A stretch of 64,000 nt of DNA. Origin: Labilibacter marinus. Its GTDB lineage: Bacteria; Bacteroidota; Bacteroidia; Bacteroidales; Marinilabiliaceae. The DNA lies in the NCBI RefSeq assembly GCF_001659685.2, contig NZ_LXYE02000045.1, positions 62,001 through 126,000 of the forward strand, written 5' to 3'. A program made the translations under genes and the position numbers. This document shows, in pieces, positions 19,306 to 32,339 of the stretch. Below the pieces are notes generated by a model. The model saw only the letters and a program-made list of their open reading frames with translations, searched no databases and was not told the origin of the DNA. Numbering within the stretch: position 1 is the first letter of the stretch; each line of letters starts with the position of its first letter.

Positions 19306-20418
19306 ATGAATTTCATTCAAAAAAAGACGTTCGCGTTTTTATTAATACTTAGTATTTCTACCGTCGCTTTTTCTCAGAAAAAAGTATATAATCAAGTTGA
19401 GGTAAAACCAAGCTCCGAAGTGGCCAACGCGACTTCGCAATCCTTAAGTTATTTGCTGCCCAAAACAGTTATTAAGGTGGATATTGAAATGGAGAAGGTG
19501 ATTAAAAAGGCTGGTCCTTATTATCGTTACTCTCAACGTTCGTTAAACTTGAACAATGTAATTACCAAAGATAGCGAAGAGTGGATTATTAAAAACGTGC
19601 ATATTTCTACCTCTGGTGTAGCCGATGAAGAAAAACGATATAACGTATTCTCAAAAGGGACAACCTCGGTAAATCACTTAAGCTTAACACCTGAAGGAAC
19701 CTTGGCTGGTATTAATGCTCCTTATGTATACTCAAAAAAATATGCTAAGAAAGAAAGCATTGAAATTCCTCAACTGGAGGATATTAGTTTTGACAATGTT
19801 GCTTTAAACGAAGAGCTATTATACAAAACATCCACCGCTGCCATGGCACAAGAAGCTGCCAATATGGTTTATCGCTTAAGAACTACTCGCACAGAGTTAC
19901 TATCGGGTGAGTTAGAAAATCTTCCTCCGGATGGTGAGGCTTATAAAATGGTGCTTACGGAGATAGCGCAGCAAGAAAAAGACTTTGTTTCCTTATTCGC
20001 CGGCAAAACAGTTACGGCTACTAAAACCGAAAGCTTCGAAGTTATTCCGGACCCATTAAGTAGCTATGCCAACTTTGTATTATGCCGATTCAACCAACAA
20101 AAAGGGTTAGTAGATGCCATGGATATCACAGGAACTCCCATCTATTTAAAAATGGATATCGAAAAACATAAAGTACTTGAAAACAAGGCTACACCAAACC
20201 CAAAAGAACCTTTAAAAAATGGTTTATTCTATAATATTCCTGGAAAAGCGGTGGTTAATATTGTAGATAAAAATGCACCTATTGCTTCTCAAAAAGTTAG
20301 CTTGGCGCAATACGGACAGGTAATTTCAATGTCGCCGGCTATACTTGAAAAAGAAGGTGTAGTAATTAAAGTTTGTCCTGTAACAGGAGCGCTTTTATCT
20401 GTAGGTAGTGAAGAGTAG
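19306..20418 (+). CDS. DUF4831 family exported protein
   Basis: The 370-residue product has a signal peptide (1-23, ...VAFSQ). The conserved N-terminal block SYLLPKTVIKVDIEMEKV, then KKAGPYYRYSQRSL, and the later YRLRTTRTELLSGELENLPP are typical of DUF4831, a family largely confined to Bacteroidota and without a known function. It lies 100 bp downstream of nnr on the same strand and may be co-transcribed, as no terminator is seen between. It is predicted periplasmic or outer-membrane-associated. Confidence 0.75.
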   Translation: MNFIQKKTFAFLLILSISTVAFSQKKVYNQVEVKPSSEVANATSQSLSYLLPKTVIKVDIEMEKVIKKAGPYYRYSQRSLNLNNVITKDSEEWIIKNVHISTSGVADEEKRYNVFSKGTTSVNHLSLTPEGTLAGINAPYVYSKKYAKKESIEIPQLEDISFDNVALNEELLYKTSTAAMAQEAANMVYRLRTTRTELLSGELENLPPDGEAYKMVLTEIAQQEKDFVSLFAGKTVTATKTESFEVIPDPLSSYANFVLCRFNQQKGLVDAMDITGTPIYLKMDIEKHKVLENKATPNPKEPLKNGLFYNIPGKAVVNIVDKNAPIASQKVSLAQYGQVISMSPAILEKEGVVIKVCPVTGALLSVGSEE

Positions 20419-20447
20419 GTAGTTTTCAGTAGACAGTCTTCAGTCTT

Positions 20448-20475
20448 CAGTGGGCAGTATACAGTGGGCAGTATA
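20448..20475 (+). repeat. Two perfect 14-bp tandem units
   Basis: CAGTGGGCAGTATA occurs twice in direct succession (20448-20461, 20462-20475). Related CAGT(C/G)TTCAGT and CAGTTGG sequences lie on either side. This low-complexity CAGT-rich spacer between DUF4831 and pepD resembles simple intergenic repeats common in Bacteroidota and has no evident coding content. Confidence 0.7.
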
Positions 20476-20655
20476 CAGTTGGTAGCACTCAGTAAAAGAC
20501 TTACTATTGACTTTCGACTTTTAACTTTTAACTTTCTAACTCGGTACTGATTCTTATCACAAGCTTTGCTGTATCAATTACTTATTTTAGCTGAAAATAA
20601 AACGAGAGCATGGATGGTTTAGGCCAGCATGTTCTTTATTTCAAAAAATACAATT

Positions 20656-22116
20656 ATGGGAAACGAAATATCAAAATTAGAACCCCTTGGATTATGGGAG
20701 AACTTTTATGCTTTAACTCAAATTCCTCGTCCAAGTAAAAAGGAAAAGCAAGCTGCTGATTATGTGGTGGATTTTGGAAAGAAATTAGGGTTAGAAACCA
20801 TTGTTGATGGAGTTGGTAATGTGATTATTAAAAAGCCAGCAACTCCAGGCATGGAAAATAAAAAAACGGTTGTATTACAAGGTCATGTGGATATGGTTCC
20901 GCAAAAAAATAGCGACAAGGTTCATGACTTCGAAAAAGATCCAATTGAGACATATATTGAAGATGGTTGGGTAAAAGCCAACGGAACAACTTTAGGTGCC
21001 GACAATGGTATTGGAGTAGCGGCTGCCATGGCTGTTCTGCAGTCAAAAGATATGCAACACGGACCTATTGAAGCTTTGTTTACCATTGATGAAGAAACTG
21101 GTATGACGGGTGCTTTTGGCTTAGAAGCTGGAATGCTGGATGCCGACATCCTCATCAATATGGATTCGGAAGATGAAGGTGAGTTATACGTAGGTTGTGC
21201 AGGTGGTTCAAATGCCAATATGACTTTTAATTATGATGAAGTTGACACAGATCCTAATTCTGTTGCTTTTAATATTGCCTTAACGGGATTAAAAGGTGGC
21301 CACTCGGGTATGGACATAGTTCTAGGTCGTGGAAATGCCAACAAACTCATGTTTCGTTTATTAAAGGAAGTGATTGCTGCTTATGGCGTTCGCTTATCTT
21401 CTATTAACGGAGGTAGCTTGCGTAATGCGATTCCTCGTGAGGCCTTTGCTACTGTAACTGTTCCGGCCAATAATGTAATTGAATTCGCCGATACGGTTGA
21501 GGAGTTTGCTGCTATTTATAAAAATGAATTAGCTGCTACCGAACCTAAGCTTGATCTTATTGCCGAAAAATGTGATATGCCTGCTACTGTTATGGCGGAG
21601 CATTCGCAAGATGATTTGGTAAACGCTATTCAGGCTTGCCCTAATGGCGTAGTTCGCATGAGCGATAGCATGGAAGGCCTGGTAGAAACATCGCTTAACT
21701 TAGCCATCGTAAAATCGGAAGGCGGAAAAACCAAAGTGATGTGTTTAATCCGCAGCTCTGTTGATTCGGCTAAAGAAGATGTAGAATCTACCTTAGAAAG
21801 TTTATTCAGATTGGCTGGTGCTGAAGTTGAATTCAGCGGTCAGTATCCTGGATGGAAACCAAATCCAGACTCTGAAATATTAACTGTAATGAAAGATGTA
21901 TACAACAAGTCTTACGGTAAAATTCCTGAAATAAAAGGTATTCATGCAGGACTTGAGTGTGGTATTTTGGGTGCCGTTTATCCTAATTGGGATATGATTT
22001 CATTTGGACCAACCATTCGTTTCCCTCACTCGCCAGATGAGAAAGTGAATATTGAAACAGTGGCCAAATTCTGGGATTTTTTAGCCGAGACATTAAAAAA
22101 TGTGCCTGCTAAATAA
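20656..22116 (+). CDS. pepD: Aminoacyl-histidine dipeptidase (M20C)
   Basis: A 486-residue cytosolic dipeptidase starting at the ATG of MGNEISKLEPLGLWENFYAL; an in-frame upstream ATG at 20629 adds nine unconserved residues. Metal-binding segments are QGHVDMVPQKN (His, Asp), LGADNGIGVA (bridging Asp), TIDEETGMTGAFGLE (catalytic Glu), NMDSED and, near the C-terminus, KGIHAGLECGI and RFPHSPDEKV. Order and length match PepD, which hydrolyses Xaa-His and other dipeptides with two zinc ions. Confidence 0.93.
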   Translation: MGNEISKLEPLGLWENFYALTQIPRPSKKEKQAADYVVDFGKKLGLETIVDGVGNVIIKKPATPGMENKKTVVLQGHVDMVPQKNSDKVHDFEKDPIETYIEDGWVKANGTTLGADNGIGVAAAMAVLQSKDMQHGPIEALFTIDEETGMTGAFGLEAGMLDADILINMDSEDEGELYVGCAGGSNANMTFNYDEVDTDPNSVAFNIALTGLKGGHSGMDIVLGRGNANKLMFRLLKEVIAAYGVRLSSINGGSLRNAIPREAFATVTVPANNVIEFADTVEEFAAIYKNELAATEPKLDLIAEKCDMPATVMAEHSQDDLVNAIQACPNGVVRMSDSMEGLVETSLNLAIVKSEGGKTKVMCLIRSSVDSAKEDVESTLESLFRLAGAEVEFSGQYPGWKPNPDSEILTVMKDVYNKSYGKIPEIKGIHAGLECGILGAVYPNWDMISFGPTIRFPHSPDEKVNIETVAKFWDFLAETLKNVPAK

Positions 22117-22138
22117 AGGCCAATAAAATATGATAAAA

Positions 22139-22170
22139 CAAAAGGGTTTCGCTTAAAGTGAGGCCCTTTG
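22139..22170. terminator. Terminator after pepD
   Basis: An imperfect stem CAAAAGGGTTTCGCTT / AAGTGAGGCCCTTTG is followed by a T-rich stretch. It lies between convergent pepD and the epimerase-like lipoprotein gene. Confidence 0.55.
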
Positions 22171-22190
22171 TTGTTTATTATTGGTATTAT

Positions 22191-23075
22191 TTAGTTATTA
22201 GATTCCATCTGGTACTTAGACTTAAGCTTATTGAATCCAACAATATTCCGCTCCAAAACCTTTTGTACATCTTCATGTTCCATATGTCCTAAAATACCCC
22301 ATGACCCCGTATACCCTTCTTCCAATAACACTTTCATCATATCATACTCATCATCCCCTTCTCCTACTGTTAAAATCTCATGGCCGTCGTTTTTCATTCC
22401 ATTAATATTAACATGAGATAGGTGCGGTTTTATTTTTTTTACTATTTCAGGAAATTCATCTATATAAGAATGTGCATGATGAAAATTATAAACCATTTTT
22501 AAGGAGTCATTTGCCAGTTTTTCAATAATCTCAAGCTGATTATATGGATTACCAAACCAACCATGATGATTGTACAATGCAACCTTACACCCTATTTTTG
22601 CTGCCTTAGTTTTAATAAATTGAATAAACTCAACAGCTAAATTAAGTGATTGTTCCTGACTTAATCCCTTAAAATAATTATTACTAAAGCTAAGCCATAT
22701 GCATGGTTTCTGCTCCACTTGGCTTAAAATATCAAACATCCTTTTATTGGAAGGGCTCAGTTTACCCATACTATCCCTTTTTGCATTTAACCATAGAAAA
22801 ACGGAGCTTATCTCAATACTATTTTCATGAGCCAGTTGAAACTCTTCAAGCATATCATCTAAATACTTACCCTGTCCTTCGTAGCCATAATTGGTAAATC
22901 CCATTTCCTTCAGCATGTCAATACGTGCTGCCGGCGATCTTTGTAAAGAATCAAATGTAACGATACACCATGGCATTACTTCTTGCTTATTACCATTGCT
23001 TTTCCTTTGGTTGGAACAAGAGTAACTTAACGAGAAAAGAAAAATTAAAATCCCAACTTTATATATCTCATTCAT
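22191..23075 (-). CDS. Sugar isomerase/epimerase-like TIM-barrel lipoprotein
   Basis: The 294-residue protein has a lipoprotein signal (lipobox LSYSC, Cys20) and a xylose-isomerase-like TIM barrel (AP endonuclease family 2 fold). The blocks ALYNHHGWFGNP, MVYNFHHAHSYIDEFP, LSHVNINGM and GYTGSWGILGHMEHEDV provide the His, Glu and Asp residues that usually bind a metal and sugar substrate. It is probably periplasmic and acts on a sugar or polyol. The AraC gene upstream is on the same strand (42 bp) and an MFS exporter/importer is divergent from it, so the three may form one sugar-use locus. Confidence 0.7.
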   Translation of the reverse strand: MNEIYKVGILIFLFSLSYSCSNQRKSNGNKQEVMPWCIVTFDSLQRSPAARIDMLKEMGFTNYGYEGQGKYLDDMLEEFQLAHENSIEISSVFLWLNAKRDSMGKLSPSNKRMFDILSQVEQKPCIWLSFSNNYFKGLSQEQSLNLAVEFIQFIKTKAAKIGCKVALYNHHGWFGNPYNQLEIIEKLANDSLKMVYNFHHAHSYIDEFPEIVKKIKPHLSHVNINGMKNDGHEILTVGEGDDEYDMMKVLLEEGYTGSWGILGHMEHEDVQKVLERNIVGFNKLKSKYQMESNN

Positions 23076-23117
23076 ACTATTGTCAACTTTAGGTGAATAA
23101 TTCTATATCGCTCCATA

Positions 23118-23975
23118 CTACAACTCCTTTGTTCTAATCTTTTTTTTATAATCGCGCGGAGTATAAGAGGTATAGCGTTTAAAAACACGGGTAAAGTGAG
23201 CAGGTTCTACAAATCCCGATTTCATCATAACCTCCGAAATATTACTGTTGCTTTTAGCTAAAAAAGTACAAGCCTTCTGAATACGATATTCGTTTAAAAA
23301 GGTAATAAAAGTTTTACCAGTAACTTTTTTAAAGAACCTGCTAAACGATGTTTCTGTTAGGCCTGTTAAATCGGCCAATTCTTTTAACGGTATGTTTCTT
23401 GAATAATGTTCCGACACAAAATTATTAATGCGATTCACTCGATTAAAATCGTTGGATTGAATATGAAGGCTCGCCGTATTAGTATGCAATAACGTATAGT
23501 CCTGCGTGCTGGCTAATAGGCCTAATATCTCTATCAGCTTTAATAACTTTTCAAAGGATTTATATTGAACTAGCTGCATCAGCATAGGCCCTACTTTTTC
23601 CTTTACCCTGGCATGAAAGCTAATGCCATGTAACGAACGTTTAAAAAGATCCGATATCTCGTTAAACTCCACAAAGCCACCTAGCTGATTATCCACAAAA
23701 TCCTCGCTCATCTGAATAACCACTTCTTTATTATGGGCATCATCAACATTACCCAAATTTGAATGCGGTATATTAGAACCAATGAGCAGTAGGTCTCCAT
23801 TGGTATATCGGGTAATATTACTTCCGATATGCCTCTCGTTACTGCCTGAATGAATATACACCAACTCGTACTCTGGGTGAATATGCCAAAAAGGTTCGCA
23901 ACAACCCGGCGATTCCATAAATGAATAAAACGAGCTATTGATATTAGGTTGAATATTTTCGTAAATGGGCTCCAT
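23118..23975 (-). CDS. AraC-family regulator with cupin sensor domain
   Basis: The 285-residue protein has an N-terminal cupin-type ligand domain (about 15-100, FWHIHPEYELVYIHSGSN, GDLLLIGSNIPH) and a C-terminal AraC double helix-turn-helix (about 185-285, LKELADLTGLTETSFSRFFK, then ISEVMMKSGFVEPAHFTRVF, YTPRDYKK). Such proteins usually sense a sugar or other small ligand. It is divergent from an MFS transporter gene with only 96 bp between, so it likely controls that gene and the downstream epimerase-like lipoprotein. Confidence 0.88.
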   Translation of the reverse strand: MEPIYENIQPNINSSFYSFMESPGCCEPFWHIHPEYELVYIHSGSNERHIGSNITRYTNGDLLLIGSNIPHSNLGNVDDAHNKEVVIQMSEDFVDNQLGGFVEFNEISDLFKRSLHGISFHARVKEKVGPMLMQLVQYKSFEKLLKLIEILGLLASTQDYTLLHTNTASLHIQSNDFNRVNRINNFVSEHYSRNIPLKELADLTGLTETSFSRFFKKVTGKTFITFLNEYRIQKACTFLAKSNSNISEVMMKSGFVEPAHFTRVFKRYTSYTPRDYKKKIRTKEL

Positions 23976-24040
23976 CTTGCAATGATATAATAAATCAAAA
24001 ATACGACATATTAAGACAAAAACAATCGCATTTTAAAGCA

Positions 24041-24048
24041 TAAGTTTG
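24041..24048 (+). promoter_or_regulatory. Candidate -7 box for the MFS gene
   Basis: TAAGTTTG fits TAnnTTTG, 23 bp before the ATG at 24072. No TTTG -33 box is seen at the expected distance, in line with control by the divergent AraC protein. Confidence 0.4.
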
Positions 24049-24071
24049 TAGCCTAATTATAACTGATAGAT

Positions 24072-25244
24072 ATGTCCACTTCATCGGCCAACAGACTTAC
24101 ATTTTTTGCTACAGCTCAGCTTTTCTTATCCTTGAGTTTACTGTACGGAACCTGGGTATTATATATTCCGCACATTATCGAAAAATTAGAAATGAGTGAG
24201 AGTCAATTGGGCATTACTTTATTTTTTGGATCGATGGGCGCTCTACTGGGTACTTTTGCAGGCAAACCCTTGGTTCGTAAAATTGGAGAAGGCAATATGT
24301 CGTTTGTTAGCATTGTATTTATGACTTTTTCTATGATAGGCATCTTCCTTGCACCGAGCTATTTTTGGATAATCGTCATATTTGTATTTTGGGGCATTGG
24401 CAGCGGTTTATTTCAGATAGCGGCTAACTCTATGGTAACGGTGATTGAGGAGCAACGAAAAATAACCATTATGTCGTCGTGCCATGCTTTTTTTAGTTTG
24501 GGCGCACTAATAGCATCGGGCGCAGGAACAATACTGATGATATTACTGGACGATGCTACCTTACATGTAATGATAGCTGCTGCTCTGGTATTAATACTTC
24601 AAGTAGGCTTTTACAAACACTATATAAAAAACAGAAAAATTAAAGAACCCTTTCAAAGTGCTCCAAAGTCCTCCAGTAAACGTGTTGGCCTTTTGGTTAT
24701 ACTGGCTGTAATAGCTTTAATTGCCATGGTATCGGAAGGAGCCATTGCCGACTGGAGTGGTTTGTACTTAAAGGATGTGGTACACTTAAACAGTAATTAT
24801 GTTGGTTTAGGATATGCCGGTTTCTCTTTAGCCATGACTTTGGCTCGTTTCGTTGGGGATTATTTTAGCAAAAAATATGGTGCGGTTCAGGTTATTTTGC
24901 GTGGTTTTATCATCTCTATTATAGGTTTTGTTCTGGTGTTGACCAATATGGGTTTAGTCACCATACTGGGCTTTTTTATTGTGGGCATTGGCTTCTCGGT
25001 CATCGTACCCGAAGCGTATCGTTTATCTGCCAATATTCCTCATATTGATTCTGCCTCTGGTATAGCTTTTATTTCCGGAACCAGCTATGTTGGTTTTCTG
25101 GCAGGTCCTCCCCTATTGGGATTTATTGCCGAAAGCTATGGTTTATCTGTAAGTTTTATAAGTTTATTATTGCTTGTGGTATTGGGAGCAGCATTGGTGT
25201 TTTTATTAAAATTTAAACCTAGTACACAACTGGCTAAAAGCTAA
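24072..25244 (+). CDS. Major facilitator superfamily transporter
   Basis: The 390-residue protein has about 12 transmembrane helices in two six-helix halves separated by a basic central loop (about 185-205). It begins with RLTFFATAQLFLSLSLLYGTWVLYIPHI and has the loop 2-3 region GKPLVRKIGEGNMSF. The pattern resembles the YbjJ/FucP-like MFS subgroup, often involved in sugar or drug movement, but no signature fixes the substrate. It is divergent from the cupin-AraC gene. It is the last gene before the accessory stretch. Confidence 0.8.
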   Translation: MSTSSANRLTFFATAQLFLSLSLLYGTWVLYIPHIIEKLEMSESQLGITLFFGSMGALLGTFAGKPLVRKIGEGNMSFVSIVFMTFSMIGIFLAPSYFWIIVIFVFWGIGSGLFQIAANSMVTVIEEQRKITIMSSCHAFFSLGALIASGAGTILMILLDDATLHVMIAAALVLILQVGFYKHYIKNRKIKEPFQSAPKSSSKRVGLLVILAVIALIAMVSEGAIADWSGLYLKDVVHLNSNYVGLGYAGFSLAMTLARFVGDYFSKKYGAVQVILRGFIISIIGFVLVLTNMGLVTILGFFIVGIGFSVIVPEAYRLSANIPHIDSASGIAFISGTSYVGFLAGPPLLGFIAESYGLSVSFISLLLLVVLGAALVFLLKFKPSTQLAKS

Positions 25245-25283
25245 TTCTGAAGTAAACCGATCCATACCTGCGACTAATCATAT

Positions 25284-25595
25284 CTACGCAATAAACAGCT
25301 TTACTATAAATAATATCCATAGGGTAATATTGCCTACAAAAGAACCTATATAAAAACTTCCTCCTCTTTTATTATATACTTTAATAGAGCTTATTAATAA
25401 CCAAACAAAACCTCCAAGACCAACTACCACAATTGCTAGAAGCTAAACCTGGAGTTCTACATTACTAATCATATGAGGTAAATAATTATTAATTAATAAT
25501 GGAAAGTAATAGCCAAGCGAGTAATACAACGCCGTCAATATTATACCAAGTGTAAACAACACCATTTTATATGTTCGAAGGTTTTCTTTTAACAT
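25284..25595 (-). pseudogene. Membrane-protein gene interrupted by one in-frame stop
   Basis: On the minus strand an ATG at 25595 opens a frame of 104 codons ending at TAG 25284-25286, broken only by TAG at 25443-25445 (codon 51). Both halves are hydrophobic: residues 11-40 before the stop and about 52-102 after it suggest three or four transmembrane segments (MVLFTLGIILTALYYSLGYY; LLAIVVVGLGGFVWLLISSI). The frame continues cleanly past the stop, pointing to a recent nonsense mutation. It starts 18 bp after the lipoprotein gene at 25614, so the two were probably one operon. No family is recognised. Confidence 0.65.
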
Positions 25596-25613
25596 AGTTG
25601 AATCTAATATTAT

Positions 25614-25937
25614 CTAAAACCCCTTTCCATAAAAGCTAGAAATATCAAAATAATAGGCACCTTTCTCACCATCAGATTTCTGAACCTTAATTACATCGTA
25701 TGGTTTCTTTTTATCAAAGACCAAGGACTGACCTAATATCTGACATCCTTCGCAAACACTCCTTACGTAGGAATATTCACTCTTAATATCATTTACAATA
25801 ATGGCTTTTTTAAATGAACTTCCATCTCGGTTTACAGTACTATCACTATTTGAAATGTCTTTGCTGGTTCCACAAGCACTTAATACAATAATGCCTATAA
25901 TTAGTAATAGCTTTGGTATATTCTTTATGAATCTCAT
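25614..25937 (-). CDS. Small lipoprotein of unknown function
   Basis: The 107-residue product has a lipoprotein signal peptide with lipobox LSAC (Cys22) and a mature part containing the Cys pair CEGC and the segment GQSLVFDKKKPYDVIKVQ. I recognise no domain; the layout is that of small orphan Bacteroidota lipoproteins. It is the first gene of a two-gene unit with the broken membrane protein downstream. Confidence 0.6.
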   Translation of the reverse strand: MRFIKNIPKLLLIIGIIVLSACGTSKDISNSDSTVNRDGSSFKKAIIVNDIKSEYSYVRSVCEGCQILGQSLVFDKKKPYDVIKVQKSDGEKGAYYFDISSFYGKGF

Positions 25938-25959
25938 AATTTAGGTTTTCGGTTATTCT

Positions 25960-26373
25960 TTACCGCTCAAATACGGAAAGTTGAATTTCTTCTCCTACTT
26001 CGTTTTTTGCTTGTTGAAATAGAAACTTGTTTTAACCATATCTTTCAAATGATTTGATATAATCTTGATTTAAAAGCCAAGGCGGTCCATTTTTATAGCC
26101 TCTTTTTTCAGCTTGCAGCTCAGTAATATACAACTAAGTGACCACCTTCAGATACAAAGCTGGATATATTTTTAATTAAAACCTCTTCATGTTTTGGAGG
26201 AAGGGCTTGAATAGTGAAGATTTCTAAAACAAAATCATATTTCATATGCCACTCAGTAACTTCTTGTATTAAATCTGCTTGAACAAATTTAACATTAGAA
26301 TCTGGAAACCGCTTTTGCAGAGTGCTACAGCACTTTCTGAAACATCAAAGGCAGTTACTTTATATTCCTTATT
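25960..26373 (-). pseudogene. Decayed class I SAM-dependent methyltransferase
   Basis: Conceptual translation of the minus strand gives successive methyltransferase pieces in shifting frames: VTAFDVSESAVALCK, then RFPDSNVKFVQADLIQEV and YDFVLEIFTIQAL... SEGGHLVV, then a shift to ITELQAEKRGYKNGPPWLLN, and finally EVGEEIQLSVFER before a TAA at 25960-25962. The order (acidic loop after strand 2, QAD, strand 4, GG-H strand 5) is that of small Rossmann-fold methyltransferases. At least three frameshifts are needed and the N-terminal SAM-binding glycine motif is missing. It is clearly dead and fills most of the 494-bp gap between its neighbours. Confidence 0.75.
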
Positions 26374-26431
26374 TATTTCTTAGCACTTCATTCATCTTAC
26401 GCTTAGGGTATAATTAAGTGTTTATAGCCAA

Positions 26432-27172
26432 TTATTTTACTATATATTTAACCTTAAATGTGGCACCTGCACTTACAGTAATCTCTCCTAATCTTTTTAT
26501 TCTATCATGAACATAGGTTGTAATCCCATGGTCAAAGGATGTCATAATATTTTCATATGTATCACCGTCCTTATCATTTAAATAAATTATTCTTGATGCT
26601 TCATTAAAATCAACCGATAATGGTTCAATTTTTATAGTTGGAATCCTAAAAGTAAGAGGTAGTTTATTCGGATGTAAATTAAATATGGTCTCAGAAGTAT
26701 AGTATACATCCTCATTCTGATCTTTTATTTCAAAATAAACATCTGGTAATCTTTCCTTCTCACTCAGATCTTCATCCCAATATTCATCTTGTTTATTATA
26801 CTTACTCTCATCTAACTGAGTCAGTACTATTTCATATGCGAACCACTCTCCAACTTTTATTTTTTTATTCAAGCTATCACGGTTCCCCTGAACATCTTTA
26901 ATAATTAACTTAACATCGTACATACCTGAATTCTGATAACGATGACTTGGGTTTCTTTCTGCAGAAGTGTTACCATCGCCAAAATCCCAACTATATAAAG
27001 CAACCGTATCACCAATATTAGAAAATTCAATTAATTCTCCTGGACTATACAAGTCATCAATTGTTTCAAAATTTGCTTTTAAAATTACAGGGTTCTCACT
27101 TTCAAGGGCTTCTTTATCACAACTAATTATAAAAATTGAAATAATAACCGTTAAATAAAATGTGGTTCTCAT
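26432..27172 (-). CDS. PKD-domain lipoprotein
   Basis: The 246-residue product has a lipoprotein signal (lipobox IISC, Cys18) and a PKD domain at about 35-110 with the classical YSWDFGDGNTSAERNPSHRY core and YDVKLIIKD strand. The C-terminal ~130 residues form a second, unrecognised beta-rich region. PKD domains mediate surface protein or sugar contacts. The gene lies in the accessory stretch with no functional partner. Confidence 0.75.
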   Translation of the reverse strand: MRTTFYLTVIISIFIISCDKEALESENPVILKANFETIDDLYSPGELIEFSNIGDTVALYSWDFGDGNTSAERNPSHRYQNSGMYDVKLIIKDVQGNRDSLNKKIKVGEWFAYEIVLTQLDESKYNKQDEYWDEDLSEKERLPDVYFEIKDQNEDVYYTSETIFNLHPNKLPLTFRIPTIKIEPLSVDFNEASRIIYLNDKDGDTYENIMTSFDHGITTYVHDRIKRLGEITVSAGATFKVKYIVK

Positions 27173-27500
27173 AGTATAAGTGTTTTTTTATGTGGTATAG
27201 CAAACATTGTGCAAAATGTAATGCATATCGCTAATTCTTTACCAAATAGTTTCTTCTAATTAAGTTTTATATAGTTTAAATTGTCTAGTCTTACTTTTAA
27301 AATCTCACGATATCACTTAGTAATAATTATAACTTAAAATAATTAACCAAGTCTTTTTACTATTATTCTCTTCTTACAATGCTCAGCGTCCATAAATAAA
27401 ACAATGCAATTTCCGTTCTTTTAAAACTTTGATAAATGCATACTTCTTAAATTTAATGCTAAAACACATATAACCTTCGATTAGTGCATAGGTAATCCAG

Positions 27501-27560
27501 GGTGTAGTTCAACCGAAACTCATCGCTAGGTCGTGCCGAACACTCATAGTTCTATTTATT
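27501..27560 (-). repeat. Dispersed repeat, copy B, in a 396-bp intergenic region
   Basis: The reverse complement matches 91-150 at 52 of 60 positions without gaps and begins 9 bp past the stop of the minus-strand gene at 27569. The dyad AGTT-TCGGTTG-AACT is kept, while the first dyad (TTCGGCACGACC) is imperfect. The remaining intergenic DNA (27173-27500) is AT-rich and shows only possible promoter elements for the PKD gene. Confidence 0.7.
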
Positions 27561-27568
27561 AGCATTAG

Positions 27569-28198
27569 TTATTCTTGTTTTAATCTAACATCAAGTTTTT
27601 CTGAATATAAAAATCCATCCTTAAAAACAAATTCAATTGTTTCTGTATCATCGGCATATGTTCCTGTAAGATTATTTTTTATCGACCGTGTTTTGAGTAA
27701 TATAAGATTTGCTCCCGTAATTTTAGACGATCCTTCTCTTTGAAAAGAAACGCTCTCTTCCTTATATTTCAGGTAAAATTCTCCATCCGTATAAATATAC
27801 ATCTCAAAATCAACATTTTCCCATTTGCCTACAAAGTTTTCATATTCTGGTGGTGCCATCATATCCATTCTCAAGCATGAGCTTATATATGTTGCATCGT
27901 TAATAATTGTATCTGTCTTAGTAATTTTAGCATACTCAAAAAGTTTACTAATATTTATTTTCTGGTCACACATATCATCTCCGTTTTCCATTAATGTGAC
28001 TGTTTCATATTTTTTCTTCTTTGGGATTGTCAATTCATAAAATCCATTTACTTTATTCATTGTCATTTTAGAATCTTTGTTTTTATCAAAGTAATAATCT
28101 AAGTCATACTTTGTTTTTCCTTTTATTACTACCGACTTTTGGGAAAAAGTAGAAACACTTATTCCTACTGTTAAAATCAAAACTACTAATATTCTCAT
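27569..28198 (-). CDS. Exported protein of unknown function
   Basis: The open frame reaches back to 28276, but the ATG at 28198 is preferred because it starts a clean signal peptide (MRILVVLILTVGISVSTFSQ). The mature part, about 190 residues, is mostly beta-strand and charged residues with CDQKIN and SSCLRMDMM, suggesting a small lipocalin- or immunoglobulin-like fold. No domain is recognised. A dispersed repeat follows its stop codon. Confidence 0.55.
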   Translation of the reverse strand: MRILVVLILTVGISVSTFSQKSVVIKGKTKYDLDYYFDKNKDSKMTMNKVNGFYELTIPKKKKYETVTLMENGDDMCDQKINISKLFEYAKITKTDTIINDATYISSCLRMDMMAPPEYENFVGKWENVDFEMYIYTDGEFYLKYKEESVSFQREGSSKITGANLILLKTRSIKNNLTGTYADDTETIEFVFKDGFLYSEKLDVRLKQE

Positions 28199-28445
28199 AA
28201 TCAATCTTATTTTATTGGTTCTTAATGCAATTTCACCCTGATGTTCGAACAGCCTGCCGTATGAAGCGTATGGCAATTTAACGAACCATACCTATTAAAA
28301 CTCCACTGAGCCAAATCTTTTATTTGTTTTTATCTTTTCATTTCTAAAGCCAAATTAACGATTTGGCGTTGGTTGCCGAAGCTATAAAACTTACAAAATG
28401 AGTCAGACTCCATATGCTTAATTGCGGTTTGCTGGCATCCGTAGT

Positions 28446-29021
28446 TTATTTTGTAATTTTGGGATTTCCATCAATTTGCTGCACGTTAATTAATATCGCA
28501 TTTGAGCAATTTCCATTCCATAACTCATATGTTTTAAAAGTTGCTTTTATAGTATATTGTTTTTTCCGCATTTCAAACGGTAGTTCCGGCCAAAGTTTCT
28601 TAAAATCACTTTCTTTTACATATAACCACTTTATTCCGTTGACTGTGTCTGCTAAAAATACTCGTTTATTCCCAAGTTTGGATTCAATTGCGTTGCGGAT
28701 GTAATCACCTTGTCCGAAATCAAGTATTTGATATCTAATTTCTGAATTAATGACAACCTGTTTATTAGTTGGGAATTTTAATCCAATCAGAATGATTAAT
28801 AAAGGTAAAATTGTCAAAGTATTAAGAACTATTGTCCAAATCCATTTCTTTAATTTTAACGAGACAAAAAAGAGAGTAGTAGGAATTACAATTAACAACT
28901 TTGTCAAAGGGAAAAGGTAAATCAAGATTGAAATACTTAATATACAGAGTACTATTCCAATAATATTTCTAGTCTTATTCTTCAATGTCTCTTTTTTTTC
29001 TATGGTTGCCAACGCTAACAA
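28446..29021 (-). CDS. Membrane-anchored protein of unknown function
   Basis: The frame has 191 codons with no ATG near its start; TTG at 29021, or another TTG a few codons in, must serve if it is expressed. Three hydrophobic segments fill residues about 18-90 (IIGIVLCILSISILIYLF, LLIVIPTTLFFVSL, TLTILPLLIILIGL). A soluble C-terminal domain of about 95 residues follows (YQILDFGQGDYIRNAIES, WLYVKESDFKKLWPELPF). No family is recognised. The first codons overlap a GC-rich inverted sequence (GTTAGCGTTGGCA). Confidence 0.5.
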   Translation of the reverse strand: MLALATIEKKETLKNKTRNIIGIVLCILSISILIYLFPLTKLLIVIPTTLFFVSLKLKKWIWTIVLNTLTILPLLIILIGLKFPTNKQVVINSEIRYQILDFGQGDYIRNAIESKLGNKRVFLADTVNGIKWLYVKESDFKKLWPELPFEMRKKQYTIKATFKTYELWNGNCSNAILINVQQIDGNPKITK

Positions 29022-29205
29022 TAAGGGGTTGTAAGCTGATTTGAAAATCCAACCTCCAAAAGCCCACAGAGCCGTAACTAAGGTTTTGGTTATATATTTA
29101 TTCTTTTCACTAGCCGAAACAAAAGTTTCGGCGAAATTATTAAACGGAGCAAAACTCCCAGATTTCTGCTAACAGCCTATGACCTTTATTTTTTGTTGGG
29201 CACTG

Positions 29206-29913
29206 TTATCTAACGACATTTGGCAGAACTCCCAAATTCTCTACAAAACGATTTAAGTACGTAGACATATGGTCTAAGTCTTGATAAATACTTAATTCAT
29301 TCACACCATACAACTCTAAAGATTTACTAATTTCACTAAGCCCTTCTTTAGCAATTATTATCTTTTTCATATTTCCACTGTCTTCAATAAGTTCTTCTAA
29401 AGGAACATTAGGCTTATGGCTAAATGTAAAAACACCTCTTTGACTTAATATTCTTGAAGTAATACCTTGTGGGTAATATACAGATGAAAAATCTACTTCA
29501 AACGGACCAATCATGTCGTGTTTTACAGTGTTCTTAGATTCAAGAACAAAGACAGCACTATCCTTATTTCCATTATTCCCTAGTAATGCAAAAAAAAGAG
29601 CTACTAAAGGATTCTTTGTCCAATCTAAAAGTCTTGTTACCAAACCATGATGCTGAGCTAAAGCTAACCAATCCCAATCATTTTCTGGTTTTTTGTCAAT
29701 GAAATTTACAGCATACCTTTTCCAACTTTCAAATATTATTTTTTCATCAATGTTTTTATCACCTGTAATTACTTTATGATAGTTATCTCTTCCTACTTGT
29801 GGAATCAGCTTATATTTAACATCATTTTGTCCTCTAAAATGTGTTCTATTGCTACTAAATAATGATATAGTTTCATGAAATTCTGCAAATGATTTTACAT
29901 ATAATTTTTCCAT
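29206..29913 (-). CDS. FRG-domain protein
   Basis: The 235-residue protein contains an FRG domain (PF08867 type), named for the FRG motif seen here as THFRGQNDVKYKLIPQVGR (residues 24-42). The partner block is WDWLALAQHHGLVTRLLDWT, then KNPLVALFFAL, and a later SRILSQRGVFTFSH. FRG proteins are scattered in accessory and phage-related DNA and have been suggested to be enzymes or toxins in defence; the function is not proven. There is no adjacent antitoxin-like gene on the same strand. Confidence 0.8.
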   Translation of the reverse strand: MEKLYVKSFAEFHETISLFSSNRTHFRGQNDVKYKLIPQVGRDNYHKVITGDKNIDEKIIFESWKRYAVNFIDKKPENDWDWLALAQHHGLVTRLLDWTKNPLVALFFALLGNNGNKDSAVFVLESKNTVKHDMIGPFEVDFSSVYYPQGITSRILSQRGVFTFSHKPNVPLEELIEDSGNMKKIIIAKEGLSEISKSLELYGVNELSIYQDLDHMSTYLNRFVENLGVLPNVVR

Positions 29914-30078
29914 ACTATCAAATAATCATTAATGTTTACTTAGTTTTTGCATAATTGTGCCCTAACTCCCTAGAGTAAAACAAGCTAAGGTGTTGTTATT
30001 TTTCTTTTACTTACCCCTAAAATGTTTTTTTTAGGATTAATTAAATCTTTCAAAGCTAGAGTTTCACGCTGTTATACT

Positions 30079-30104
30079 AAAAAAAGGCCACCTCTCGGTG
30101 GCCT
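30079..30104 (-). terminator. Terminator of the coiled-coil-like gene
   Basis: Stem AGGCCACC / GGTGGCCT with a 4-nt loop; read on the minus strand, a run of seven T follows. It lies 11 bp past the stop of the gene at 30115. Confidence 0.8.
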
Positions 30105-30114
30105 AAATGCTTTA

Positions 30115-30771
30115 TTAACTCCTCACAAAAATGCCTACACTCTCCAGTAGGTCGTTGCGTTTGCCCAGGGCAATTTTTAGTAGGGTTGTAAACTCACGGT
30201 TACGCTCAATCATAACTTCCAAGGCTTCGTTTCGTTCTTGTGTAGCAGCTTGAGCTTCTCCTTTTTCTTGTACTTGCAGGCGTTGTAGCTCAGCTAGCTC
30301 CTCTACTTTTTGCTGTTCGGTTTGCAATACTTCAATACCCCTGTTAAAACGAGTAAGTAAAGGAAGTAAATTGACATCTGTAGTTATGCCAGCATAAAAA
30401 GAACGTAATCGCTCAATCTTTTTACCTATTGCAGCAGGCAGCTGAATTCCAATTTTTAAAGCGGTATCAAAGTTGGCATTTACCATTACCATACGCGCCA
30501 GTTGCATCGTATCATCGTAAATTAGCTCTACCTCCTCTAACGCAGCATCGCGCCTATCGGTAGCAGTAAGCTTTTCGCTATACTCCTTTTCTTGTTGTTG
30601 GCTGGCAGAACGTGCCGTTAAAGCACAAGTTAGCGTTTGGGCAACATACTCTTCATTTACATTAAACAGGCTTAATTTTTCTAGAATTTCAGGGTTAGCT
30701 AGGCTGTTTTTGGCTTTTGTTTCTACTGAAGAAATTTTTTCATCAATGGTAAGTTTGCTAAAAGACTTCAT
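30115..30771 (-). CDS. Helical protein of unknown function next to the 21-bp array
   Basis: The 218-residue product starts at ATG 30771 (MKSFSKLTIDEKI); the open frame extends 14 codons further without a better start. It has no signal peptide or membrane segment. It is strongly helical: about 40-110 is rich in Ala, Glu and Gln (ARSASQQQEKEYSEKL), and about 150-200 is likely a coiled coil (QTEQQKVEELAELQRLQVQ). I cannot name a family. It has its own terminator, and a 380-bp degenerate repeat array begins 154 bp upstream of its start, which is the notable feature of this locus. Confidence 0.6.
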   Translation of the reverse strand: MKSFSKLTIDEKISSVETKAKNSLANPEILEKLSLFNVNEEYVAQTLTCALTARSASQQQEKEYSEKLTATDRRDAALEEVELIYDDTMQLARMVMVNANFDTALKIGIQLPAAIGKKIERLRSFYAGITTDVNLLPLLTRFNRGIEVLQTEQQKVEELAELQRLQVQEKGEAQAATQERNEALEVMIERNREFTTLLKIALGKRNDLLESVGIFVRS

Positions 30772-30925
30772 AATTATTTCGGTTTTGATTAAACTATAAT
30801 AAATGTAGTACAATTATTTTATTAAATACAAATCTCTTAACTAATTCATAATTAATCCATATAAGTAAATTATCCACATAATATAATTAAGAACTTACAT
30901 ACATTTCAACGCAATACCACAACAA

Positions 30926-31305
30926 CATCAAATAGTCATTTTGTAAGATAAATAAGTCATTTTGCAGAACTAATATTTCTGTTTGCAGGGCAACTAAGTC
31001 TATTTATTTCCTCAACAATTCATTTCTTCGTCACTATTATTTAGTTTGTAGCTTTTATATATAATTTTGTAGGCATCAGCAGTCACTTTGTAGCATATAC
31101 CAATGAGTTTGCAGGCCAAAAACATAGACCTTGTAATTATGTACAATCATTTTGTAGGCTCGTGTAATGACTTTGCATGTTTAAGCAATCATTTGGCAGC
31201 TTTAAGTAGTAATTTCGTAGACAAAAAGAAATGAGTTTGTAGGCCAACTTATATCTTTTGTAGGCTGCAGTACCCATTTTTCAAGATAGAGTATTGAGTT
31301 TGCAG
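30926..31305 (-). repeat. 18-unit degenerate tandem array, 21-bp period
   Basis: Read on the minus strand, the consensus is CTRCAAAnTSAYT followed by about 8 variable bases. Eighteen consecutive units fit: fourteen are exactly 21 bp, one is 20 bp and three are 22 bp. Well-kept units include CTGCAAACTCAATACTCTAT (31305 down), CTGCAAACTCATTGGTATAT and CTGCAAAATGACTTATTTAT; two units near 31000-31030 are badly worn. In one frame each unit reads Leu-Gln-(Asn/Thr/Ser)-(Asp/His/Glu)-x-x-x, with all of CTG, CTA, TTA and TTG used for Leu, but stop codons and length changes break the frame. The array is therefore either non-coding (phased sites) or a dead heptad-repeat gene. Confidence 0.8.
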
Positions 31306-31379
31306 TGTAAATGTTCGATAAAATCTGGAAAAATCCCCTCTAAAACCTTAAACCTTTACACCTTTTCAACCCTTTACCC

Positions 31380-32333
31380 CTATTTCCCAACAACTATCTC
31401 CGCTGCTTTTTGCTGCTCAATAATTTTGCGCACATATAAATTACGGGTGACTTGTCGGCCTAGGCTTACAAGATCTATACTCACTCGCAAGGTATGCTTA
31501 CCGCCATTGCTAGTAGGTAAATTAGGCATGGCCAGGCGACCTCTATCATCTGTTTTTATCTTATCCTGCACTAAATATCCACCCGAATATTTTAAACGAA
31601 CCGGGCAATTAGTTACTGTAACTTGCTTATCATCATTAATCAGAAAAAAGTTATCAGCACTTAAGTTTTGTGTATTGGATGAAATACGAAATGAGTGAAT
31701 AATTTCATTTATTCGTTTGCTGGATTCCAAGGCTAAATTAACCACTTTACCCTTTACCTCAGCCGTGGTCGATTCGTTTAAGTATCCGCTTAAAGCGTCG
31801 ATGGCTTTGGCATAATGCTCAATGGCGGCAATATGTCGGCCATGCTCTTGCAGCTCTACCCCGCCCACATAATCCTCCAGGGCCAGTTTTATGGCTTCGG
31901 ACTTACGCTGTGCCTTAACCTCTTTATACTTTTGTTTCGATAATCGATAGTACACATATACATTAGATAAATCTTCCCACTTCTCAATATACTCGTAGCC
32001 TTCTAAATATTGGGCCGAGGTTGATTTAATACGATTTTGTAAATACTCATGCACGCCTTGTTTATCCTCAACCTGATAAAACATAGCTTCGGATTTAATG
32101 GTAGAATTAATCTGACTCGATATATCTGCTAAAGCGCGATCCTTGGCTTTATCCTCGTAAAAAGTAGGCGAACCTACCTTTGAGGTGATACCAATTCCGT
32201 AATAATAATCTGGATTTACAGGACGCTCCTTTAACCATGCAGGTTTGGTTTGCTCCAATAATTCGGCCTGTTTTTTGGCACCAGAACAGGCCGCTAGTAA
32301 GGTGGCTAAAAGTAAAACAATGGCAATGCGCAT
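31380..32333 (-). CDS. LPP20-family lipoprotein
   Basis: From ATG 32333 the product has 317 residues with a lipoprotein signal (MRIAIVLLLATLLAACSG; the Cys of LAAC is modified). The region PDYYYGIGITSKVGSPTFYE, then DKAKDRALADISSQINSTIK, matches the LPP20 family of small outer-membrane lipoproteins. The C-terminal ~110 residues form a beta-rich domain (VTVTNCPVRLKYSGGYLVQD). A TTG six bases earlier is less likely as start. It directly follows the larger lipoprotein gene with 6 bp between, so the two are an operon. Confidence 0.75.
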   Translation of the reverse strand: MRIAIVLLLATLLAACSGAKKQAELLEQTKPAWLKERPVNPDYYYGIGITSKVGSPTFYEDKAKDRALADISSQINSTIKSEAMFYQVEDKQGVHEYLQNRIKSTSAQYLEGYEYIEKWEDLSNVYVYYRLSKQKYKEVKAQRKSEAIKLALEDYVGGVELQEHGRHIAAIEHYAKAIDALSGYLNESTTAEVKGKVVNLALESSKRINEIIHSFRISSNTQNLSADNFFLINDDKQVTVTNCPVRLKYSGGYLVQDKIKTDDRGRLAMPNLPTSNGGKHTLRVSIDLVSLGRQVTRNLYVRKIIEQQKAAEIVVGK

Positions 32334-32339
32334 ATACAA

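Follow-up and report, generated by a model that had tools for sequence, protein, structure and literature searches.

Type III toxin-antitoxin systems such as ToxIN have a tandem repeat directly upstream of a single gene. The plasmid systems parC/ParR and tubC/TubR have repeats upstream of an operon, either continuous or in blocks, and in the excerpts of PMC5016525 drawn on here the protein that binds them is also a repressor. BldC, a 68-residue MerR-like protein with a regulon, is described in excerpts of PMC5859096 as forming a cooperative head-to-tail oligomer on direct repeats of DNA. Intergenic direct repeats of the heptamer TAACTGA lie upstream of start codons, also in five Bacteroidetes; in the parts of PMC4679880 cited here, the fixed 7-bp unit stands before many different genes and a role in translation is suggested.

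We analysed a 64,000-nucleotide stretch of Labilibacter marinus DNA, referred to below as the window, in which a degenerate 21-bp tandem array lies upstream of a PQLLE family gene. As intergenic direct repeats upstream of a gene, the array resembles the TAACTGA heptamers, which differ, in the excerpted description (PMC4679880), by their fixed 7-bp unit, their many genes and their suggested translational role. The features of the locus are as follows.

30926 to 31305, minus strand: 21-bp tandem array of 18 slots with the core CTRCAAAnTnA (TTTGYAG on the plus strand), from the unit model and lag self-match
30772 to 30925, minus strand: AT-rich leader from the array to the start codon, which would hold the promoter or 5' untranslated region, from the sequence
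30115 to 30771, minus strand: PQLLE family gene, 218 aa, predicted all-helical, with two halves similar by eye, from NCBIfam NF052641 and AlphaFold2
30085 to 30104, minus strand: terminator-like hairpin after the PQLLE gene, from the sequence
29206 to 29913, minus strand: FRG-domain gene, a neighbour downstream of the PQLLE gene on the same strand, from the family scan
31380 to 32339, minus strand: LPP20-like lipoprotein gene flanking the array, common to same-genus genomes and outside the module, from the family scan and comparison
22117 to 31388, no strand: stretch absent at the matching place in same-genus genomes (L215, L216, L217, L218), with approximate ends

The original prediction described a phased, degenerate array of eighteen 21-bp units on the minus strand with the head CTRCAAAnTSAYT. 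The fitted model placed 17 units, running from 31305 to 30926 on the minus strand, and one step of 42 bp brings these to 18 slots; the remaining steps are of 21 bp, except for two of 22 bp, and the fitted core, CTRCAAAnT.A, is close to the predicted head. Self-match over 30881-31330 was 0.464 at lag 21 and 0.422 at lag 42, compared to 0.232-0.344 at the other lags from 10 to 49. The region upstream of the window gene scored 209 with the 21-bp unit model (leave-one-out), above all 500 dinucleotide shuffles used as the null (four of each of 125 upstream regions; maximum 60.9, 99th percentile 48.6), so that the repeat statistic is far from that of shuffled DNA. When the window was cut into 169 overlapping 750-bp tiles, only three exceeded 60.9 and all three touched the array, while four further tiles exceeded 48.6. 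Tandem Repeats Finder missed the array even with the score lowered to 30, presumably owing to the strong degeneracy of the units. No promoter could be located, either by a sigma-70-type scan of 29900-31450, in which the 8 found were not clearly above the shuffle mean of 5.5 (sd 2.4), or through the motif TAnnTTTG. Elsewhere in the same genome, a core-pair pattern allowing up to one mismatch gave 38 matches beyond the array itself, 18 of them forward and 20 reverse, where a control gave 28, and a triple pattern of the window core revealed no second array with that core. We rejected a regulon on the grounds of this slight excess and the single array.

The gap between array and gene is ~155 bp. 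The window protein matches NCBIfam NF052641, 'PQLLE family protein', with 148.2 bits against a cut-off of 80, and the same model matches 14/14 members of profile A1. The gene had been called unrecognised; it does belong to a named family, though a functionally blank one, as we know of no function for NF052641. Searches of the open PMC literature returned no text that names the family and, among the records listed, no account of such 21-bp arrays. No library model other than PQLLE passed its curated cut-off; the best Pfam value among the 14 members was 0.00095 (DUF4422, one member), and the matches to PHROGs and PADLOC were weak, none of them convincing. AlphaFold2 predicted an all-helical protein (mean pLDDT 91.2) with two helices of ~56 residues. 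The model of a paralogue from the same genome likewise had helices and zero strands, with a similar helix order and a shorter first long helix. Foldseek gave no convincing match for the window protein in the PDB (best E 0.19, poor superposition) or among viral models (best E 0.098). The protein is acidic, with a pI of 5.1, and the median over 117 members is 5.9.

The PQLLE model matched 49 of 71 genomes in the taxonomic family of the window (48 over cut-off), with up to nine matches per genome, and 0 of 14 control genomes. Across a class sample that included the genome itself, 6 of 395 genomes were matched, 3 of them over cut-off, and the PQLLE model together with profile A1 matched 6 of 395 across a phylum sample, again with the genome itself included. 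Saccharicrinis, Plebeiobacterium and Carboxylicivirga are among the named hosts of one clade. A contig scan with the window protein as query found no relative. The collected set comprised 126 distinct open pieces, corresponding to 122 genes, of which 121 had upstream DNA; four genes (L024, L025, L044, L126) are broken in two, and their second pieces were left out of the 121-gene counts. A distant branch was found with one paralogue from the same genome as query, and 27 of its 29 genes were used, two being dropped for short upstream DNA.

Among 27 periods, 21 bp was the strongest in the 700 bp upstream of 79/121 family genes (82/125 pieces if the four broken genes are counted twice). Downstream it was the strongest in 11/123 pieces, some of them followed by another gene of the family. 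The unit model exceeded the 99th percentile of shuffles upstream of 94/121 genes and the maximum of the 500 shuffles upstream of 80/121, compared to 12/126 and 10/126 downstream; 63 of the 80 positive arrays have an AT content below 0.75, and the other 17 (AT >= 0.75) may be low complexity. No array above the shuffle maximum was present at 41/121 genes. In pieces whose upstream 300 bp had an AT content of at least 72%, 21 bp was the top period in 24/53, compared to 58/72 otherwise. In the distant branch 21 bp was the top period for 26/27 genes, the exception being the leading member of a tandem gene pair in L188, and the unit model exceeded the 99th percentile for 25/27. The paralogue used as query and four further loci of this branch score below the PQLLE cut-off, so the linkage to arrays reaches relatives that the family model does not. 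The family genes include orthologues and are thus not independent; a subset of 31 arrays with proteins less than 50% identical served as a guard. Gene and array are linked across the family.

Some members depart from this pattern. A clade comprising L022, L026, L027, L075, L077 and L099-L107 has no clear 21-bp array upstream; its DNA is often very AT-rich, and many of its members stand ahead of a large exported protein. In the distant relatives L172, L173 and the 294-aa gene of L188, the proteins have C-terminal extensions that resemble carboxypeptidase-regulatory-like beta domains by eye, and no signal peptide was seen by the same means.

Conservation within the unit followed a 10.5-bp harmonic. 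The signal was strong in 62 arrays with AT below 0.75 (z 15.0, 0/1000 permutations), in the 31 of these whose proteins are less than 50% identical (z 10.8, 0/1000) and in 18 arrays of the distant branch (z 4.5, 0/1000), and fits to shuffled DNA (170/195 usable) were flat at this harmonic. The 3-bp harmonic lay below the null (z -2.6). After correction, the top seven columns of the unit carried 1.32 bits and the bottom seven 0.25 bits. Among 686 steps counted in these arrays, 525 were of 21 bp, 109 of 20 bp and 25 of 22 bp. A second arm with inverted units was present in 8/125 arrays, above every one of 125 shuffles, and a crude estimate gave 35 inverted matches against 17 expected. The inverted arms suggest that orientation is free, as expected for double-stranded DNA sites, and a 10.5-bp rhythm with no 3-bp rhythm suggests that double-stranded DNA is read from one face rather than translated. 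Rhythm, steps and inverted arms fit B-DNA read from one face in either orientation. The predicted alternative of a dead heptad-coding array did not hold up, since the 3-bp rhythm is absent and steps of 20-22 bp break the frame; none of the arrays examined in relatives proved to be an ordinary heptad-repeat gene, and the longest open frame lay beyond 95% of mononucleotide shuffles in only 4/82 arrays (L010, L011, L014, L025).

The core differs between loci. Locus-specific cores include TTTGYAG (window, plus strand), GAAGCAA, TTAGGA, TTTAAGG, GCGAAAT, AGGTCA and others, and the copies within one genome have different cores. The original prediction had not foreseen this difference, which means that a single consensus cannot retrieve the other arrays. 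Core similarity correlated with protein identity (rho 0.178; 59 arrays, 1711 pairs; 0/300 permutations), with a mean of 0.31 at less than 30% protein identity and 0.60 at more than 70%, a correlation to which common ancestry of the loci may contribute. In this set L120, at 53% protein identity, is closest to the window array and has part of its core. In L091, whose protein is 79-84% identical to those of L084, L089 and L090, the core AAGGA was counted 9 times in 9 units and GCGCA 0 times, whereas GCGCA was counted 7, 7 and 5 times in the 9, 10 and 9 units of L084, L089 and L090, and AAGGA was not found there; the unit tails of the four arrays look alike by eye. The L091 protein may have shifted its preference with the array changing after it, or the array itself may have been rebuilt, and by either route the switch suggests that the units answer to a common reader. 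Within the protein, residues 96-145 gave the best partial correlation for specificity (0.19 and 0.28; 50 arrays, without the AT filter), and as a specificity region they are a lead only.

We propose that gene and array are a self-contained module, in which the PQLLE protein binds its array cooperatively and regulates its own gene, and we put the probability of this reading at roughly 0.55. The gene and its array would form one portable module, in which the elongated helical protein would recognise the locus-specific core of its own array on one face of double-stranded DNA, with one protein per 21-bp step of two helical turns. Cooperative loading would give a nucleoprotein filament next to or over the gene's own promoter. 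The filament would set expression of the PQLLE gene, most likely by repression with a sharp threshold, and may also control the genes behind it. Protein specificity and array core would change together, so that the copies in one genome need not cross-talk. The evidence points strongly to the PQLLE protein as the reader of the array; cooperativity and the filament are probable features of the reading, and autoregulation, which the position of the array suggests, is put forward more cautiously. Support for the original prediction, in which the array is tied to the neighbouring gene and serves a protein that binds DNA cooperatively, comes from the 21-bp arrays upstream of most relatives and from the one-turn rhythm, with the neighbour protein as the putative binder. 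The cooperative oligomer that BldC forms on direct repeats, in the excerpts of PMC5859096, offers a works-like model for the proposed loading; here the protein is instead long and helical, with one array per gene. That the PQLLE protein is acidic and has no known binding domain is a genuine obstacle to this interpretation.

A broader view, which we hold tentatively and at somewhat less than even odds, is that these proteins are a new DNA-reading class, in which a duplicated long-helix fold with no known DNA-binding domain would polymerise along a dedicated array phased at two turns, and a fast-changing code would carry the whole array along. On this view the superfamily, which occurs in several families of Bacteroidia, would consist of gene-array switches orthogonal to one another, with one clade now part of type II CRISPR-Cas loci.

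A centromere- or anchor-like nucleoprotein site, positioning or holding a region of the chromosome with autoregulation secondary, would also account for a phased array and is unlikely on the present evidence. In the excerpts of PMC5016525, plasmid parC and tubC likewise have their repeats, as one block or several, ahead of the gene for the protein that binds them, a role that PQLLE would fill here; arrays of 7-25 units (82 fitted arrays) and the existence of two-armed arrays suit such a site. However, neither a ribbon-helix-helix nor a winged-helix domain appeared in the list of 12 Pfam families that 14 members gave at E up to 0.1, and no actin- or tubulin-like NTPase that could serve as a motor was found among the window neighbours scanned, which matched LPP20, FRG, PKD, MFS, AraC-type and TIM-barrel families or no family over cut-off. 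The family occurs in several copies per genome, up to nine by model matches, and the core can differ between proteins 84% identical. Phage and plasmid records gave no match with one member, L014, as query, and viral contigs gave none with a single pattern from profile A1, and a mobile replicon was rejected on these searches.

The surroundings of the window gene are variable. The ~9.3 kb stretch that is absent from the corresponding place in same-genus genomes has the array at its edge. In L216, L217 and L218 the LPP20-like gene is followed within ~70 bp by a homologue of window 22116-20665, and in L215 ~400 bp separate the two. At the same chromosomal spot, L213 and L214 of the same genus have what appears by eye to be an AbiE-type pair, indicating that the spot is variable, and one further genome has another gene there.

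Wider flanks were examined for 14 loci of one clade, chosen after cas genes had turned up beside some of them. The PQLLE gene adjoins cas9 in 9/14 of these chosen loci (L198, L204, L205, L206, L207, L209, L199, L201, L210); in the first six cas1 is also present and the PQLLE gene lies between cas9 and cas1, inverted in the cas locus of L209. Pfam backs the assignment of Cas9 and Cas1 in both L198 and L206, and in L198 that of Cas2 as well; the other cas assignments were made from sequence starts matched by eye and from BLAST clusters. In L028, which is the same place as L210, a fragment at the end of the contig clusters with cas1. CRISPR arrays with a 66-bp period lie past cas2 in L198 and L204, separate from the 21-bp arrays, in which identical repeats with unique spacers were not seen. 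Seeds matching the CRISPR repeat were present upstream of cas9 in L204, L205 and L209, and no seeds were found outside the CRISPR array in L198, L206 and L207; the comparison covered these six loci, the stretches of L199, L201 and L210 containing no CRISPR array. A tracrRNA role for the CRISPR-linked 21-bp arrays was rejected on this basis. Behind the PQLLE gene, genes that look by eye like REP-associated transposases were seen at L204:7169-7753, L205:3339-3923, L207:7052-7591 and L199:8576-8989, preceding cas1 where it is present; Pfam gave no match for the L204 gene.

These settings raise the idea of a defence-linked module, in which the protein would act on invading DNA or tune a defence operon and the array would be its own sensor or decoy, a reading that we consider rather improbable. 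It is favoured by the adjacency to cas9, and in six loci to cas1 too, within the chosen clade, and by the place of the window copy beside an FRG gene in a variable spot where two same-genus genomes have the AbiE-like pair. Among 87 neighbour proteins of 25 other loci there were, in the families listed, at least two C5 methylases, two Vsr and three HNH proteins, as raw counts. The remaining families are mixed and mostly ordinary, however (25 of 86 Pfam and 25 of 94 PADLOC families listed), and another large set of copies stands ahead of large exported proteins (40 loci that BLAST groups together, in part through repeats). The next gene is on the same strand downstream in 103/138 cases and upstream in 85/129.

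Some arrays stop 22-50 bp short of the start codon and may therefore be part of the transcript, which bears on whether the array acts as RNA in the transcript leader, in the manner of the repeat antitoxin RNA of a type III toxin-antitoxin system. We give this little weight. Folding z values below -2 were obtained for 20 (sense) and 27 (antisense) of 82 arrays, yet the median was only about -1 on both strands (mononucleotide shuffles), and the 10.5-bp rhythm and inverted arms fit double-stranded DNA instead. The RNA reading was rejected on this weak median folding and the absence of any Rfam family at gathering score within the window; the units also look too degenerate for a repeated fold. With ToxIN the locus shares the tandem repeat directly upstream of one gene, and differs in unit size, degeneracy and protein fold. 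Near-identical structured RNA repeats were not seen, as only part of the 21-bp unit is conserved and median folding is near that of shuffles, and the all-helical model, with its poor PDB superposition, does not resemble a ToxN-like endoribonuclease.

The acidity of the PQLLE protein, together with its lack of a known DNA-binding domain, would be explained if a different, host-encoded protein read the array and the PQLLE protein did something else. This has a very small probability in our view, given that the core follows the PQLLE protein and that copies in one genome differ in core. Neutral satellite DNA or a dead heptad-coding array is negligible as an explanation: slippage can lengthen a tandem array, a unit of 21 bp spans seven codons and a few arrays have a long open frame, but conservation within the unit is unequal, the arrays are linked to genes, and the missing 3-bp rhythm and the 20-22 bp steps speak against coding.

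Reading the array as the target of its own PQLLE protein turns a family known until now by name alone into a two-part system open to testing, in which every gene comes with a prediction of the DNA it would bind. Should binding be shown, ~80 natural protein-array pairs would let the recognition code be read off and would reveal how a protein changes in step with about ten sites, and the family would be a source of orthogonal DNA-binding modules. The adjacency to cas9 raises the question of how CRISPR adaptation genes are controlled.

A cluster of short CAGT-rich repeats, with units of 7, 14 and 21 bp, was seen elsewhere in the window at 20415-20540, ahead of a gene starting near 20657, and the tiles around it had weak scores in the 21-bp unit model.

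Gene and array also recur together between genomes. L025 and L034, from genomes of two families, have ~1.5 kb in common at 93% identity by BLAST and alignment, consisting of the array, the gene and short flanks, suggesting that the two can be transferred as a unit. The alignment extends at lower identity into part of an upstream gene, and one of the two gene copies is broken. At its 3' end the shared DNA is near-identical over several hundred bases and ends abruptly at CCAACCGTT, possibly a recombination boundary.
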